64,000 bases of DNA, taken from contig JAQBNS010000048.1 in assembly GCA_028288405.1 (NCBI GenBank), forward strand, positions 1-64,000, in the 5' to 3' direction. Position 1 is the first letter of the stretch. Each line of letters starts with the position of its first letter. Positions 3,795 to 48,262 of the stretch are shown here, piece by piece. This stretch comes from Chitinophagaceae bacterium (GTDB lineage Bacteria; Bacteroidota; Bacteroidia; Cytophagales; Cytophagaceae). The position numbers and the translations under genes are program-made. The notes beneath the pieces were generated by a model. The model ran no database searches and was not told the origin of the DNA. It worked only from the letters and a program-made list of their open reading frames with translations.

Positions 3795-4799
3795 ATGAAG
3801 AAGAAATGGATGTCTGTTCTCACCGTATTGGTTATGGGAACGTTGCTTTTCACTGCTTGTAAAAAACAAGATGAAGTAGCACCAACAAATAAAGGAGAGC
3901 AGGCAGATGATGCATCTGCAAGAAATGAACTGGATCGTGCGCAGGATGATATCGAATCAGTTTATAATTCCGATCAATACGCAGGTAATCAAAGAGCTTC
4001 TGCTGTTGTATTGCCTTGTGGTAGTGTAACTTTAAATACAAACAACTATACTATAAACTATAATGGTGTAAACTGTGGTTCCCGTGTATTAAGCGGTTCT
4101 ATCAGCGTAACGCTAGTTAGCGGAACAAAATTCTCGGATGCCAATGCTAAATTGCAAATCGTTTTCAATAATTATAAGGTACACTATAATGCTTCCGGCG
4201 AAGAGATTGTTTACAATGGTACTACATACATTACCAATTTAACGGGAGGAACATTGGCTAGTTTGTTTACTACCACTCCCGGAACAGTTGCTCATAAGAC
4301 ACGTGGTACATTGACATTGACTTATGATACGACAGGCACTGGAGGATCTACCTTCTCAAGAACCTGGAACTTGTTCCGTAAGAAAACATTTACTTCTAAT
4401 GGTACAGCTACCGGAATCTCCTTAAAGTTTGAAGGAGATACTACAATTGCTGCCGATACTTATCTGCCGGGTACTTATGATGCAGTAAGTGAGTACGGTA
4501 CAGACGTTGACAATAGAAGATTCATTCACACCATTCCTACTCCTTTTGTATGGAGCAACTGTGGAACAAGTTATAGTGGTCCATACATATTGAAAACAGG
4601 AAGAGTGGAGCATACGGCATTTAGCGATGATCACAATTACAAGTACCAATTCTCCGCAACAGCCGGTTATCGAACAGATGGAACAAATAACATATTGGAT
4701 CAGTCTTGTGCATCTAATGGTTACCTGCTTAATATTACTGCCACAGTAGTAGCAACAAGCACAAAGTTTGTGGACTACTCTGTTTTCCAACAGTATTAG
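3795..4799 (+). CDS. Hypothetical lipoprotein
   Basis: The N-terminus MKKKWMSVLTVLVMGTLLFTAC is a lipoprotein signal with the acylated Cys at residue 22, so the protein is membrane-anchored. The first 50 mature residues are charged (KKQDEVAP, ELDRAQDDIESVYN), like a flexible linker with a short helix. The rest is Ser/Thr/Gly-rich beta structure with paired Cys residues (VLPCGSVTLN, NGVNCGSRV, WSNCGTSY, LDQSCASNG) that could form disulfides in the envelope. The C-terminal half alternates strands around TLTYDTTGTGGSTFSRTWN. I do not recognise a family. The gene is monocistronic: a terminator follows within 25 bases and no close partner precedes it on this strand. Confidence 0.75.
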   Translation: MKKKWMSVLTVLVMGTLLFTACKKQDEVAPTNKGEQADDASARNELDRAQDDIESVYNSDQYAGNQRASAVVLPCGSVTLNTNNYTINYNGVNCGSRVLSGSISVTLVSGTKFSDANAKLQIVFNNYKVHYNASGEEIVYNGTTYITNLTGGTLASLFTTTPGTVAHKTRGTLTLTYDTTGTGGSTFSRTWNLFRKKTFTSNGTATGISLKFEGDTTIAADTYLPGTYDAVSEYGTDVDNRRFIHTIPTPFVWSNCGTSYSGPYILKTGRVEHTAFSDDHNYKYQFSATAGYRTDGTNNILDQSCASNGYLLNITATVVATSTKFVDYSVFQQY

Positions 4800-4823: not shown

Positions 4824-4857
4824 AAAAAGGTCTGCTTCTTATGAGGCAGACCTTTTT
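4824..4857 (+). terminator. Strong bidirectional-looking terminator
   Basis: A perfect 12-bp stem (AAAAAGGTCTGC at 4824-4835, GCAGACCTTTTT at 4846-4857) with a 10-base loop lies 24 bases after the lipoprotein stop. A/T runs on both sides allow function on either strand. Confidence 0.9.
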
Positions 4858-4872
4858 ATTGATACCATCCTT

Positions 4873-4995
4873 CTGACCCCTAACCCCTAAAGGGGAATTT
4901 GTATGATGAAACAAAGAAGCTCTTCGCATATACTATGCGAAGAGCTTCTTTGTTTAGTAAAAATTAAAGTCCCTTTAGGGATTTAGGGTTAATCA
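4873..4995. repeat. Nested palindromic repeat, family A copy 1
   Basis: The outer arms are CTGACCCCTAACCCC at 4873 and its imperfect inverse ending near 4995; each arm contains a small self-complementary core (CCCCTAAAGGGG; CCCTTTAGGG). The centre is a perfect 22-bp stem (4909-4930 with 4934-4955) with a 3-base loop, built around AAGCTCTTCGCATA. The copy sits between the convergent ends of the lipoprotein and lspA genes. Two more copies occur at 45947-46072 and 46503-46632. It carries no ORF. Confidence 0.85.
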
Positions 4996-5003
4996 GCTTG
5001 AGT

Positions 5004-5606
5004 TTATTGTGCCGCTATTTCCTTATTCGAGTCATCCTTAAAGAACTTGCGTTGGTAAATGATAATCCAAATCACACCTATAAATATGCTGGCATCAGCT
5101 ACATTGAATACCGGCCATAAAGGATAATAAGCACCGCCTATCAAAGGCACCCAATCCGGTATAAGGCAATTGCATAGATCGATAAAAAACATATCGATTA
5201 CTTTTCCATGAAACCATGGAGTAGGGGCATCATAAGGAGCGTTGTTTAAAAGAACACCGTAGAAAGTACTGTCTACTACATTTCCGATAGCACCACCTAA
5301 AATTAATGCGATACTCCAAAGTAAACCGTCAGGTAATTTTTTCAAAATCAATTGGTGCAGATACCAGGCAATACCGCCACAGGCGATGATTCTGAATACT
5401 GTGAGCAACAACTTACCATAATCACCGGCAATGCTGATCCCGAAAGCCATGCCTGCGTTGGTAATGTAATTTAGCTTGAACCAGTCTCCGAATATTTTTA
5501 TTTCATATCCTTCAAATGGGAATGTATAGAATACATACAACTTGACCGCCTGGTCCAACAGGATGACAAACAAGGTGGCTAAAAAATACTTATAAGTTTT
5601 CATCAA
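5004..5606 (-). CDS. lspA: Lipoprotein signal peptidase II
   Basis: LspA is the inner-membrane aspartyl protease that removes signal peptides from diacylglyceryl-modified prolipoproteins. Four hydrophobic helices are visible. The family signatures are present: NYITNAGMAFGI (residues 46-57), GGAIGNVVD (104-112), GKVIDM with catalytic Asp138, and FNVADAS with catalytic Asp171. The loop between the third helix and the Asp138 motif is long and typical of Bacteroidota versions; total length is 200 residues. It lies 69 bases after ileS on the same strand, the common ileS-lspA arrangement, and is probably the last gene of the RND-ileS-lspA operon. The many lipoproteins in this window are substrates for it. 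Confidence 0.95.
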   Translation of the reverse strand: MMKTYKYFLATLFVILLDQAVKLYVFYTFPFEGYEIKIFGDWFKLNYITNAGMAFGISIAGDYGKLLLTVFRIIACGGIAWYLHQLILKKLPDGLLWSIALILGGAIGNVVDSTFYGVLLNNAPYDAPTPWFHGKVIDMFFIDLCNCLIPDWVPLIGGAYYPLWPVFNVADASIFIGVIWIIIYQRKFFKDDSNKEIAAQ

Positions 5607-12747: not shown

Positions 12748-12861
12748 GGGCGTGTCCCTTCGGGTCGGGCTATCCGCTGCAAGTCCTCGCTCGAATCCAT
12801 CAATCCATCCTATTACATACCTTCATGCTCGCTGTGGGCTTTCCGCTTCTATCCCTCACGC
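12748..12861. repeat. Structured dispersed repeat, family B copy 1
   Basis: This 114-base element begins GGGCGTGTCCC and ends ATCCCTCACGC, so its termini can pair (GCGTG with CACGC). It contains two similar internal blocks, GGGCTATCCGCT and GGGCTTTCCGCT. The ends are nearly identical to the copy at 29123-29235 while the middle 35 bases differ. A third, more divergent copy lies at 48419-48543. This copy is between the glyS terminator and the start of the MtfA-like gene. It is GC-rich relative to its surroundings. Confidence 0.85.
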
Positions 12862-12884
12862 AGCAGCTTACTATCCAAAATAAG

Positions 12885-29122: not shown

Positions 29123-29235
29123 GGGCGTGCCCCTTCCGGTCGGGCTATCCGCTACAAGTCCTCGCTCGGTTCTTATTGGCTAGCATTACCAAACGCAGTG
29201 CCTCGCTGTGGGCTTTCCGCTTCTATCCCTCACGC
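29123..29235. repeat. Structured dispersed repeat, family B copy 2
   Basis: The element begins GGGCGTGCCCC and ends ATCCCTCACGC with pairing termini. It keeps GGGCTATCCGCT, CAAGTCCTCGCTCG and GCTGTGGGCTTTCCGCTTC from copy 1 but has an unrelated middle. It lies between convergent genes and ends three bases before the stop of the FAD/Fe-S gene. Confidence 0.85.
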
Positions 29236-29238
29236 AAA

Positions 29239-42517: not shown

Positions 42518-42538
42518 TTCGAATAAAATATATGAAAT

Positions 42539-42573
42539 AAAAAAGCCCTGATGAATTTCATCAGGGCTTTTTT
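42539..42573. terminator. Bidirectional terminator between convergent genes
   Basis: AAAAAAGCCCTGATGA at 42539-42554 pairs perfectly with the inverse at 42558-42573. Poly-A and poly-T on both sides allow function for both the TonB-CTD gene and the peroxiredoxin gene. Confidence 0.9.
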
Positions 42574-42587
42574 ATTTATTCGATTAA

Positions 42588-43313: not shown

Positions 43314-44801
43314 TTAGACAAAATAAATGTCTTGCGTACAGCCAAACTCGTCACAGACCTTGCAATTGAGTCTTCCCTTAAACAATTCGGGTTTTAAGAT
43401 GGATTTTTTCAGCAGCATACGCACGCATTCCTGGATACCTTCAATGATAGAAGGATGTGGATGAATCAATTCGGCCAATTCTTCAATGCCTTTGTCCATA
43501 GAAATCAACAAAGCCACCGCTTGTATAGCACTGGAAGCATGCACACCGACTGCACGCATCCCTAGAATTTTCATGTCGTCGTCGTCGGTTACTAAAATTT
43601 TAAAAAAACCATTGTTGACACGCATCGCGATGGCACGAGGAATCAGGTCATAATTCATGCTGGCTACACGGTAACGCAGACCTTTCTTCTGCGCCTGCAT
43701 TTCATTAATGCCTACACCGGCTACTTCAGGATTTAAAAACATGATGGTAGAAATATTATTCAATACCAGATCCTCAGACTTGTTACCAAAAATTTTCTCT
43801 ATTACATGTCGTCCTTCTACTTCTGCGACATTCACCAAAGCCACGTCAGCCGTGAGATCTCCGATGGCATAGATGTTAGGTATATTCGTTTGACCGTCTT
43901 GATTAACGATGCAGCCGTTGTTGACTTGTACACCGGTATTTTCCAAACCTAAGTTTTCTACATTAGGTACACGCCCGATAGAAACCAATGCTTTCTCTAC
44001 ACGGTGTATTTCTTTTCTGCCGTCTTTGTACTCTAACTCATACTCTACTTCACCGTCCACGATTTTCATCGAAGCGAGTTGTGCGTTATTGTGAATGACA
44101 ATTCCTTGTTTGGACATGTTCTTACTGATGTTGTCGGCCACATCGTAATCTTCAAAGGGAAGAATGCGATCTGCTTTATCAATAATAAAAACATTCGTAT
44201 AACCGAAGTTTGAGAAAATGGTTGCCCATTCGCAACCGATCACGCCGGCACCCAAGACCACCATGCTTTTAGGAAATTCTTTGAAAGACTCAATCCCATC
44301 ACTCGTCACAACAATTTTTTCATCAATCGGGAGGTGAGGAAGTTTACGAGGTCTGCTGCCGGTGGCAATGATCACATGTTCTGCGTAGATTGTTTCTACA
44401 CTTTGCCCGGATGTTACTTCTACTTCATTTGCATTCAAAAACTTAGCTGTTCCGTTCAGGTATACAAAGCGCTCCTGCTTTTTTTCCTGCAGGCGAAAAA
44501 CTTGTTCTTCGAGTTGAAACTTACGTATCCCTATTCCTTCCCAAACTTCGTTCAATATTTGTTGAAAAGATACATCAAAGGTCTGTCCTGTATGGTATTG
44601 TGCCATACGCTTGCGGACAGAAGAAATGTCTTTAGAAAGCTCCCAAAACGTTTTAGAGGACAAGGCACCATTGTACAATCCGGCGCCTCCAAGCTTGTTT
44701 TTTTCTATTAAAACTACCTTTTTATCAAAATCGAGAGCCCTCATAGCAGCTGCATATCCGGCGGGGCCTCCTCCAATGATACAAACATCAAAACGCTTCA
44801 T
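43314..44801 (-). CDS. Lipoamide-dehydrogenase-like flavoprotein lacking the redox disulfide
   Basis: The fold is that of class I pyridine-nucleotide disulfide reductases: FAD motif CIIGGGPAGYAAAMRA (residues 7-22), NADH motif MVVLGAGVIGCEWATIFSNFG, second FAD motif NIYAIGDLTADVALVN, and the dimer-interface LIHPHPSIIEGIQE retaining the His-Glu pair. At the place of the redox site GGTCLNVGCIPSK the sequence reads GGAGLYNGALSSK (residues 38-50), so both catalytic Cys are Gly41 and Ala46. The last 30 residues add CKVCDEFGC. It cannot do classical disulfide chemistry; a transhydrogenase, diaphorase or other electron-transfer role is possible. It is a single gene. Confidence 0.85.
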   Translation of the reverse strand: MKRFDVCIIGGGPAGYAAAMRALDFDKKVVLIEKNKLGGAGLYNGALSSKTFWELSKDISSVRKRMAQYHTGQTFDVSFQQILNEVWEGIGIRKFQLEEQVFRLQEKKQERFVYLNGTAKFLNANEVEVTSGQSVETIYAEHVIIATGSRPRKLPHLPIDEKIVVTSDGIESFKEFPKSMVVLGAGVIGCEWATIFSNFGYTNVFIIDKADRILPFEDYDVADNISKNMSKQGIVIHNNAQLASMKIVDGEVEYELEYKDGRKEIHRVEKALVSIGRVPNVENLGLENTGVQVNNGCIVNQDGQTNIPNIYAIGDLTADVALVNVAEVEGRHVIEKIFGNKSEDLVLNNISTIMFLNPEVAGVGINEMQAQKKGLRYRVASMNYDLIPRAIAMRVNNGFFKILVTDDDDMKILGMRAVGVHASSAIQAVALLISMDKGIEELAELIHPHPSIIEGIQECVRMLLKKSILKPELFKGRLNCKVCDEFGCTQDIYFV

Positions 44802-44889
44802 AGGTATGCAAAGTGGGGAATAATGTGCAATCCCAGTTTAATCATTTTTTAAGCAAAATCCTTCTGACTTTAAAAAGGAATTATTGCGA

Positions 44890-44920
44890 TTTGTTAAATT
44901 CATTTAAATACATTACTTTG
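44890..44920 (+). promoter_or_regulatory. Candidate promoter of the coiled-coil membrane protein gene
   Basis: TTTG at 44890-44893 and TTACTTTG at 44913-44920 are separated by 19 bases; the second differs from TAnnTTTG at one position. The predicted start lies about 20 bases before the ATG at 44946. Confidence 0.5.
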
Positions 44921-44945
44921 GTTTATCATTTTATTTTAACCCTTT

Positions 44946-45866
44946 ATGGCACAAAACCCAAATCAAAAATCAGGAGGAAAGAGCTCCATTTTTCTAATTA
45001 TCATCCTAGTTCTTTTAGGTGTAATTGGCTACCTGGTATACAACAAAATTGTTGACTCAGATAAAATTGAACAGCAAGGATCAGAAATTCTTGAATTGGG
45101 CGATAGTATACAAGCTAAGATTAAGGATTTAGAAGAACTACAAACGGCTTATGAAAGTCTTAAACTTCAAAACGAGGAGTTAGGTCAGAACAACGATAGC
45201 ATCAATGCTAAAATCAATGAACTGCAGGAATACATCAAACAAGTTAAAGCAGGCAATGCAAGCAAGATCAAAAACTTGAACAACATGATTGCCGGTTTGA
45301 ACAAAGATTTGGCAACAAAAGAACAAGAGATTATCTCTCTTCGTAAAGAGCGTGATTCTTTAGTTGTTCAGGTAGATACTTTGCAAAAAGAGAAAATTGT
45401 GATGAACGATAGTATCAATGCATTGCGCACCAATAGAACAGACCTGGAGCAAAAAGTAGCGATAGCTTCTGTTCTTAGGGCTGATAATATTAAGATTGTT
45501 GCGGTGAATGCGAAAGGCAAAGAATTCGATAAAGAAGAGTTCAAAAATAAGAACCTGGATAAATTGAAAGTTACGTTCACATTGGATGATAACAAAGTAG
45601 CTAGAAAGGATAAGAAACAAATGTTTATCCGTGTAATCGACGCATCAGGAAAAGTATTGTTTGATGTAGCAGACGGTGGTGGTTTCTTCGTATTGAACGG
45701 CAAAGAATCTCCATATACTTTGAAAGAAAGCATCTTGTTTGATAACACCAATCAACAAATCACTTTCGAATACAAGAAAGGATCTGAATATCCTTCAGGC
45801 GCATACACTGTAGAGCTTTATGGTGACGGCAACCTGATCGGTACTTCTTCTTTCAATGTGAAGTAA
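44946..45866 (+). CDS. Membrane-anchored coiled-coil protein
   Basis: A short basic N-terminus (MAQNPNQKSGGKSS) precedes one transmembrane helix (IFLIIILVLLGVIGYLVYN). Then follows a long coiled coil (about residues 40-180, with heptads such as IQAKIKDLEELQTAYESLKL and ATKEQEIISLRKERDSLV) and a C-terminal beta domain of about 120 residues (KLKVTFTLDDNKVARKDKKQMFIRVID, ending TVELYGDGNLIGTSSFNV) resembling an Ig-like sandwich. The coil would project into the periplasm. No named family is recognised; similar single-gene proteins are common in Bacteroidota. Confidence 0.8.
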   Translation: MAQNPNQKSGGKSSIFLIIILVLLGVIGYLVYNKIVDSDKIEQQGSEILELGDSIQAKIKDLEELQTAYESLKLQNEELGQNNDSINAKINELQEYIKQVKAGNASKIKNLNNMIAGLNKDLATKEQEIISLRKERDSLVVQVDTLQKEKIVMNDSINALRTNRTDLEQKVAIASVLRADNIKIVAVNAKGKEFDKEEFKNKNLDKLKVTFTLDDNKVARKDKKQMFIRVIDASGKVLFDVADGGGFFVLNGKESPYTLKESILFDNTNQQITFEYKKGSEYPSGAYTVELYGDGNLIGTSSFNVK

Positions 45867-45884
45867 TCACATAAGAATCTCTCT

Positions 45885-45921
45885 AAAAAAACCCTGTTCG
45901 AATTATCGGGCAGGGTTTTTT
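45885..45921 (+). terminator. Terminator of the coiled-coil protein gene
   Basis: AAAAAACCCTG and CAGGGTTTTTT pair perfectly around a 14-base loop, starting 18 bases after the stop. Confidence 0.85.
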
Positions 45922-45946
45922 ATTAAGAAGTTGTTACTTCATCTGT

Positions 45947-46072
45947 CTGACCCCTAATCCCCTGAAGGGGACTTAAGTTCTTACTAAACAAAAAAGCTCA
46001 TCGCATATACTGTGTGATGAGCTTTTTTGTTTTAAGCGAAAGCAAAGTCCCCTTCAGGGGATTAGGGGTCAG
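45947..46072. repeat. Nested palindromic repeat, family A copy 2
   Basis: The outer arms (45947-45974 and its inverse ending at 46072) match perfectly over 28 bases, beginning CTGACCCCTAATCCCC. Each arm holds a small core CCCCTGAAGGGG. The centre is a stem of 20 bp (45986-46005 with 46013-46032, one G-T) containing AAGCTCATCGCA. It lies between convergent gene ends, 18 bases after the VOC gene stop. Confidence 0.9.
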
Positions 46073-46089
46073 GAAGGATTGTATATAAC

Positions 46090-46479
46090 CTACACTTCGT
46101 ACAACTCCAGCGGCAATCCATCCGGATCAGCAAAGAAGGTAAACCGCTTCCCCGTATGTTCATCGATACGAATGGCTTCTGACTCGACGCCATGTTGTTT
46201 CAAATAAGTTCTGCCTTCTTCTATACTGCTGACTGCAAAAGCAAGGTGTCTTAGTCCCAAGGCCTCTGGCTGTGAAAGACGTTGTGGTGCATTGGAGAAA
46301 GAAAAAATTTCAATGATGTATTGGCCATTCAGTGCAAGATCCAGTTTGTACGAATCCCTTTCCTGGCGGTAGATTTCACGAACGATAGTGAAACCTAAAA
46401 CTTCCGTATAGAATTTTTTACTGCGCTCATAATCGGAACAGATGATGGCGATGTGGTGGATGGATTTTAGAATGTTCAT
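46090..46479 (-). CDS. VOC-family protein (GloA2/YaeR-like)
   Basis: This 129-residue metal-binding vicinal oxygen chelate protein has a duplicated beta-alpha-beta-beta-beta module: IHHIAIICSDYERSKKFYTEVLGF in the first half and LGLRHLAFAVSSIEEGRTYLKQHG in the second, with FTFFADPDGLPLELYE at the C-terminus carrying the last ligand Glu. The His of HHIAI, a Glu of IIEIFSF, the His of RHLAF and the terminal Glu form the expected metal site. The sequence is closest to YaeR/GloA2-like proteins of uncertain substrate. It is bracketed by two family A repeats, 24 bases before its ATG and 18 bases after its stop. Confidence 0.88.
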   Translation of the reverse strand: MNILKSIHHIAIICSDYERSKKFYTEVLGFTIVREIYRQERDSYKLDLALNGQYIIEIFSFSNAPQRLSQPEALGLRHLAFAVSSIEEGRTYLKQHGVESEAIRIDEHTGKRFTFFADPDGLPLELYEV

Positions 46480-46502
46480 CTTGACTTTTTATAAAATACT
46501 GT

Positions 46503-46632
46503 CTTGCCCCTAACCCCTAAAGGGGAATGGTGCATTGATATTTATGACTGTAAAGTAAAAAGAAAAAGCTCATTACAAAATTTATGTAATGAGCTTTTTT
46601 ATGAAAGTCCCCTTCAGGGGATTTAGGGGCTA
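46503..46632. repeat. Nested palindromic repeat, family A copy 3
   Basis: The left arm is CTTGCCCCTAACCCCTAAAG at 46503 onward and the right arm CCCCTTCAGGGGATTTAGGG ends near 46632. The central stem is 15 bp (46563-46577 with 46585-46599) built on AAAGCTCATTACA. It sits between the ABC-F stop and the VOC start, both on the minus strand. Confidence 0.85.
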
Positions 46633-46645
46633 GACAAGTTAAGCA

Positions 46646-48262
<1,617 letters not shown>

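Follow-up and report, generated by a model that had tools for sequence, protein, structure and literature searches.

A dispersed REPIN-like palindromic repeat with a putative bidirectional terminator as cargo and arms associated with DUF559 nucleases

REPINs and BIMEs are accompanied by RAYT transposases, and in these systems partner and palindrome co-diversify (Bertels and Rainey 2011, PMC3116915; PMC6006769). GTAG- and CGTC-tagged palindromic repeats form dimers with structured spacers and lie mostly between convergent or unidirectional genes (PMC3733652). VsrA, a DUF559 protein of Caulobacter, has been linked in vivo to DNA damage when cytosine methylation is missing, and the accessible part of its account makes no mention of palindromic repeats (PMC12907096). 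In the open-access literature, we found no paper that connects DUF559 to palindromic repeats (subscription papers and preprints lay outside this search). Here we describe three nested palindromes in a contig of a Chitinophagaceae bacterium (the window, i.e., the whole analysed stretch of 64,000 nucleotides), which are members of a dispersed repeat bearing a likely bidirectional stop signal for transcription.

Structure of the window copies and extent of the arm family

The three nested palindromes start at positions 4873, 45947 and 46503, where a sequence-only reading had placed copies with CCCCTAA-type arms, and fold far better than shuffled sequences on either strand (z of about -12 to -13, -16, and -8 to -10 for copies 1, 2, and 3), with 0 of 200 shuffles folding as well as the real copies. 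Their outer arms read CCCCTAA(A)T?CCCCTNAAGGGGA and its reverse complement. The consensus arm CTGTCTTRCCCCTAAATCCCCTRAAGGGGACTT is about 30 bp long and itself palindromic around CCCCTNAAGGGG. Between the arms lies a hairpin with at most 22 pairs (AAACAAAGAAGCTCATCGCATATA...TATGCGATGAGCTTCTTTGTTT). The features are as follows.

4873..4995, no strand: copy 1, entire element with its arms, spacers and hairpin; sequence, fold z -11.7/-13.2, ortholog in G001
4873..4899, + strand: copy 1, left arm (core CCCCTAAAGGGGA at 4884-4896); sequence, 13-mer matches
4909..4955, no strand: copy 1, interior hairpin of 22 pairs with 5' A-tract and 3' T-tract, proposed bidirectional intrinsic terminator
4967..4991, - strand: copy 1, right arm, slightly decayed; sequence
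45947..46075, no strand: copy 2, whole element; sequence, fold, ortholog in G001 with inverted interior
45947..45974, + strand: copy 2, left arm; sequence, 13-mer matches
45986..46032, no strand: copy 2, interior hairpin; fold, covariation, covariance model
46046..46075, - strand: copy 2, right arm; sequence, 13-mer matches
46503..46634, no strand: copy 3, whole element; sequence, fold, ortholog in G001
46503..46528, + strand: copy 3, left arm; sequence, 13-mer matches
46562..46600, no strand: copy 3, interior hairpin; fold, covariation, terminator-like on the - strand in the consensus scan
46604..46633, - strand: copy 3, right arm; sequence, 13-mer matches
4824..4857, + strand: ordinary terminator belonging to the + gene next to copy 1, outside the element; read from sequence
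45885..45921, + strand: ordinary terminator belonging to the + gene next to copy 2, outside the element; read from sequence
42531..42581, no strand: ordinary arm-free bidirectional terminator, built like the interior hairpin; model R1 score 36 bits

The central stem is longer than first described: in copy 1, whose hairpin scores 73.5 bits with the covariance model, positions 4909-4930 pair with 4934-4955, so that the A-tract and T-tract are part of the pairing and 22 pairs result. The stems had also been called fully paired, and the pairing does hold, with one G.T (G.U) pair in ATCGCA/TGTGAT. The placement at gene 3' ends, with two copies between convergent genes, is as the sequence-only reading had it. 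Copy 1 separates a plus-strand gene (3795-4799) from an lspA-like minus-strand gene (5004-5606), and copy 2 is flanked by the convergent genes 44946-45866 (+) and 46090-46479 (-), while copy 3 lies between two minus-strand genes, at the 3' end of 46646-48259 and upstream of 46090-46479. The window holds another repeat pair unrelated to the arms, at 12748-12862 and 29123-29236, 16.4 kb apart (GGGCGTGYCCCTTC.GGTCGGGCTATCCGCT..., CTCGCTGTGGGCTTTCCGCTTCTATCCCTCACGCA).

The 13-mer arm core CCCCTNAAGGGGA had 237 matches in the genome at up to one mismatch, compared to 7 for the reversed control pattern, and 10 matches in the window with two mismatches allowed (2.7 expected). Counts of the exact 13-mer were 107, 24, 75, and 141 for four species of this genus; elsewhere in the family and order, genomes had 0-7. 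The exact 25-mer arm is present in many other Bacteroidota, which rules out an origin of the arms specific to this genus. Inspection of about 62 elements that have a perfect arm, compiled from searches and fetched stretches and thus a sample rather than a full census, revealed that shared arms enclose several interior types, i.e., a terminator-like hairpin with a long A-tract/U-tract (17 in the sampled set of this genome), nested GTCCC palindromes, a one-sided CCAGCAAAA, and the types AGCAAGAGCAACA and CGCAGGGTC. The copies that had been set apart as 'Family A' are real and belong to the first type, of which three species of the genus have some 20 copies apiece; this type is one of several interiors within a larger family of arms rather than a family of its own. 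No Rfam family was matched.

Variants of the arm arrangement occur elsewhere. At about 1527-1575 of locus L017, a fused palindrome without interior (CTGTCTTACCCCTAAATCCCCTGAAGGGGATTTAGGGGTAAGACAG) probably derives from a deletion between two arms. In Larkinella and Spirosoma (L232, L234, L247, L278, L281), arm pairs are merely 41-50 bp apart, and these genomes mostly lack DUF559. The exact 25-mer arm is further found on several long contigs (L253, L260, L261, L292, L306) of a non-Bacteroidota MAG labelled Thiotrichaceae, reflecting either transfer between phyla or misbinning; a search for DUF559 in this arm-bearing MAG found none.

Covariation, inversion and placement of the interior hairpin

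Among the 17 copies of this genome, 89.6% of cells were paired, both sides had changed in 10 of 22 pairs, and 28 double-change cells were counted versus 11.9 in shuffles; the signal was lost when the partner was slid by 1-3 columns. The covariance model derived from these copies gave, on two strands, 59, 54, 29, and 66 matches in four genomes of the genus, equivalent to about 15-33 hairpins per genome, and its low-scoring matches include ordinary terminators. Orthologous copies (same flanking genes) carried 16 compensatory versus 12 single changes, as counted from twelve pairs per copy and excluding the misregistered pairs (3,59) and (4,31), which had inflated the compensatory count. The co-variation proposed from three copies is hence borne out among many copies of the genome as well as among orthologs, and placement is not random. 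In genome G001, the copy of site 4873 has lost its left arm and retains a perfect stem that differs from this genome by two double changes; the arms of G001 copies are generally more decayed (0.72 and 0.83 of consensus) and the stems still paired. Because the arms of G001 decay while the stems stay paired, these sequence comparisons favour, without proving, selection on the stem over a general correction of palindromes.

At several orthologous sites of these draft assemblies, the interior matches better when inverted, with collinear flanks. The clearest case is 45947, where the spacer GCTTTCGCTTAAAAC, found only at this locus among all fetched sequence, is on one side in this genome and on the other in G001. 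Such in-place inversion would result if recombination or template switching took place between the arms, and draft assembly error is a possible source too. The G003 sites orthologous to 45947 (L126) and 4873 (L143/L145) have the arms in place around a different interior, as if cargo had been swapped.

Armed copies of the hairpin type in this genome are mostly situated between convergent genes (13 of 16, none divergent), compared to 21 of 46 for the other interior types, and the genus shows the same location for 47 of 64 copies, orthologs included. On either strand, the stable stem is followed by a U-tract with about eight T among the 10 nt downstream of the GAGC box. At convergent sites the two sides are equally good (8.0 and 8.1 T of 10), whereas at tandem sites the side used by incoming transcription has 8.5 T of 10 versus 7.1 on the unused side (Wilcoxon p 0.012, 13 copies, some of them orthologous). 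Because of the common history of some ortholog pairs, the counts for placement and U-tracts are partly dependent. Copies reside at gene 3' ends genome-wide and genus-wide, the location of intrinsic terminators, and arm-free terminators of this genome (window 42531-42581) resemble the interior hairpin. The AT-rich stems count against a terminator, and a simple terminator scan over 44000-48000 detected the hairpin inside copy 3 and missed the one inside copy 2. The best reading is that the interior hairpin acts as a putative bidirectional intrinsic terminator. The barrier or terminator role suggested earlier is backed by 3'-end placement and by U-tract asymmetry at tandem sites, with termination itself inferred. 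Since the plus-strand genes beside 4873 and 45947 own ordinary terminators just upstream of the element, it would chiefly serve the minus-strand gene at these two sites and guard against read-through.

Candidate partner genes of the arms

The sequence-only reading had proposed looking for a TnpA-REP-type transposase. Such Y1_Tnp (RAYT) genes do exist (eight here and 30 across four genomes of the genus), but none of about 30 in the four genomes is flanked by these arms, the nearest case being one arm roughly 800 bp from a RAYT gene in L116. None of 117 arm-bearing loci (up to 8 kb) contained a RAYT gene. The elements share with REPINs an organisation in inverted pairs of short palindromes, a high copy number, and extragenic location, and the consensus arm CTGTCTTRCCCCTAAATCCCCTRAAGGGGACTT has no GTAG or CGTC tetranucleotide at the palindrome foot. 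RAYT genes carry palindromes of other kinds, and RAYT was rejected as partner. Several RAYT-like genes per genome have REP-type palindromes of their own (GGCGCAAG.. and ATAGAGC..GCTCGGG; L010-L016, L103-L121). Palindromes of the form CGCAGGGTC...GACCCTGCG flank two RAYT genes of the genus (L108, L116) and are also nested inside CCCCT-arm elements (L026, L027, L036, L056, L059).

In the loci inspected, arms spaced by 0.5-2.9 kb enclose mostly ordinary genes plus two DUF559 ORFs, and an autonomous transposon between them was rejected. DUF559 genes, rather than RAYT genes, go with the arms: they touch arms in 6 of 117 arm-selected loci and in three genomes of the genus. An intact DUF559 gene of G003 sits within an array of arms, one of which encodes its last residues, G001 has an intact gene with decayed arms, and this genome retains a 41-codon remnant between two arms. 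No DUF559 was found in G002, and arms thus persist without a detectable intact nuclease in this genome and G002, both incomplete drafts. In a phylum-wide draw, C-rich palindromes were located within 200 bp of 27 of 30 DUF559 domains, on both sides in 20, at a density of 5.2 per kb near DUF559 versus 0.19 far from it; palindromes of this kind accompanied one of 17 RAYTs and none of six control ORFs. Their sequence varies by lineage on one conserved plan, and one palindrome type is multicopy in some hosts. The nine nucleases with CCCCT-type palindromes cluster together in the phylogeny (support 90/77, recovered in 92% of bootstrap trees), and palindrome labels required 11 changes on the nuclease tree compared to 23 when shuffled. 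Nuclease clade matches palindrome type, and the partnership amounts to an association with co-diversification.

Palindrome-DUF559-palindrome units also occur in frame inside LeuRS, HsdR, HsdM, MetH, and Type ISP genes (L352, L355, L356, L358, L366, L372, L378, L350), where the domains are flanked by palindrome-derived linkers of the SPLPLGEGxGEG type; their presence inside unrelated genes implies mobility. The partner protein belongs to PF04480 (DUF559; Pfam E 7.7e-37) with invariant residues including D55, E66, and H72, and Foldseek related its fold to an endonuclease-like structure (3hrl, E 5.9e-8) and the homing endonuclease I-Bth0305I (PDB 3r3p, E 1.5e-4). The presence of DUF559 failed as a predictor of arms: 13 of 23 genomes with arms possess it, about the same share as 109 of 198 in the phylum as a whole. 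CCCCT-flanked DUF559 copies were found in five or six of the 13 arm-bearing genomes with DUF559, compared to one of 30 loci in the draw. The association of DUF559 with the arms is strong, and from it we infer a putative mobilisation by the nuclease.

Proposed mechanism, alternatives and relation to known systems

The joint explanation that we consider best, and rate as fairly probable, is a REPIN-like element with a two-way terminator as cargo and DUF559-linked C-rich arms mobilised in the manner of homing. Two palindromic arms of about 30 bp stand in inverted orientation around a cargo, here a perfect hairpin between an A-tract and a T-tract that could be read as an RNA terminator from either side, and copies would be retained where convergent genes, or the end of a tandem gene, gain from a stop. 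The arms are part of a general class of C-rich palindromes flanking DUF559 genes across Bacteroidota. The nuclease may cut or nick its own palindromes or DNA close to them, after which repair may copy the arm-bounded unit elsewhere, a homing-type partner taking the place of a RAYT.

Classical REPs or REPINs mobilised by a RAYT encoded in the same genome, the terminator hairpin being their spacer, would account for the inverted arm pairs, the extragenic 3'-end placement, and the high copy number, and RAYT genes are at hand; the lack of arms at the Y1_Tnp genes of the four genomes, which bear other palindromes, the lack of RAYT genes in the 117 arm-bearing loci, and the missing GTAG/CGTC foot make this improbable. 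That the elements are MITEs of a DDE-type insertion sequence, with the arms as terminal inverted repeats moved in trans by its transposase, we regard as very improbable: near-identical terminal repeats around variable interiors would fit, but inspected loci had no transposase ORF between arms, each arm is itself palindromic, which is unusual for terminal inverted repeats, and target duplications were not seen by eye. The arms are shared with DUF559-bearing units, and no DDE transposase was found with them in the loci inspected.

Two further alternatives concern parts of the preferred explanation. Paired change might be unselected, template switching or hairpin correction keeping the palindrome perfect in selfish repeats that are neutrally tolerated at gene ends. 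Correction of inverted repeats is a known mutational process, and the in-place inversions point to recombination or template switching acting on the element. Against this, which we judge unlikely, stand the one-sided, uncorrected decay of outer arms (as at the G001 copy of 4873 with its perfect stem), a convergent bias exceeding that of other interior types, and the U-tract asymmetry. DUF559 might also be a passenger, a homing-type nuclease that inserts in or beside pre-existing C-rich palindromes spread by other means, as the 10 of 23 arm-bearing genomes without DUF559 would allow; we find this doubtful given the agreement between nuclease phylogeny and palindrome type, the palindromes at 27 of 30 DUF559 loci, mostly on both sides, and the in-frame units within unrelated genes.

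Beyond the joint explanation of DUF559-linked arms with terminator cargo, we tentatively advance a wider and somewhat less certain reading: C-rich palindromes and DUF559 could constitute a second, RAYT-independent palindromic mobile system, in which the nuclease copies its own palindrome-bounded units, inserts in frame even in essential genes, and carries cargo such as a spreading bidirectional terminator. If true, DUF559, a widespread domain of unknown function, would gain a testable role as partner of dispersed palindromes, and repeats presumed to be RAYT-dependent would have another engine. A mobile repeat would deliver ready-made two-way terminators to gene ends, and selection on the stem would be separable from decay of the mobile arms.

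The elements resemble the REPIN/RAYT system in their inverted palindromic pairs, a copy number of about 100, an extragenic position near the 3' ends of genes, and a partner gene among the copies, and differ from it in the partner, here DUF559 (PD-(D/E)XK, Vsr-like) instead of an HUH enzyme, and in having C-rich palindromic arms without GTAG/CGTC foot around an interior with its own hairpin. Dimers, structured spacers, and gene-end placement are common to the GTAG/CGTC-tagged repeats, whereas the arm elements lack the tag tetranucleotide, are associated with DUF559, and have a terminator-like covarying hairpin as spacer. Bidirectional intrinsic terminators between convergent genes likewise consist of A-tract, stem, and T-tract but are unrelated stems, as opposed to the dispersed homologous copies inside repeat arms described here. 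VsrA of Caulobacter and the arm-linked nucleases are alike in the DUF559 domain. Vsr-like/EDxHD homing endonucleases such as I-Bth0305I, which has been described with a group I intron, have a catalytic fold like that of the DUF559 partner and, like the DUF559 units, are selfish genes inserted in host genes; the DUF559 gene differs in being bounded by palindromes that are also present in many copies without the gene.
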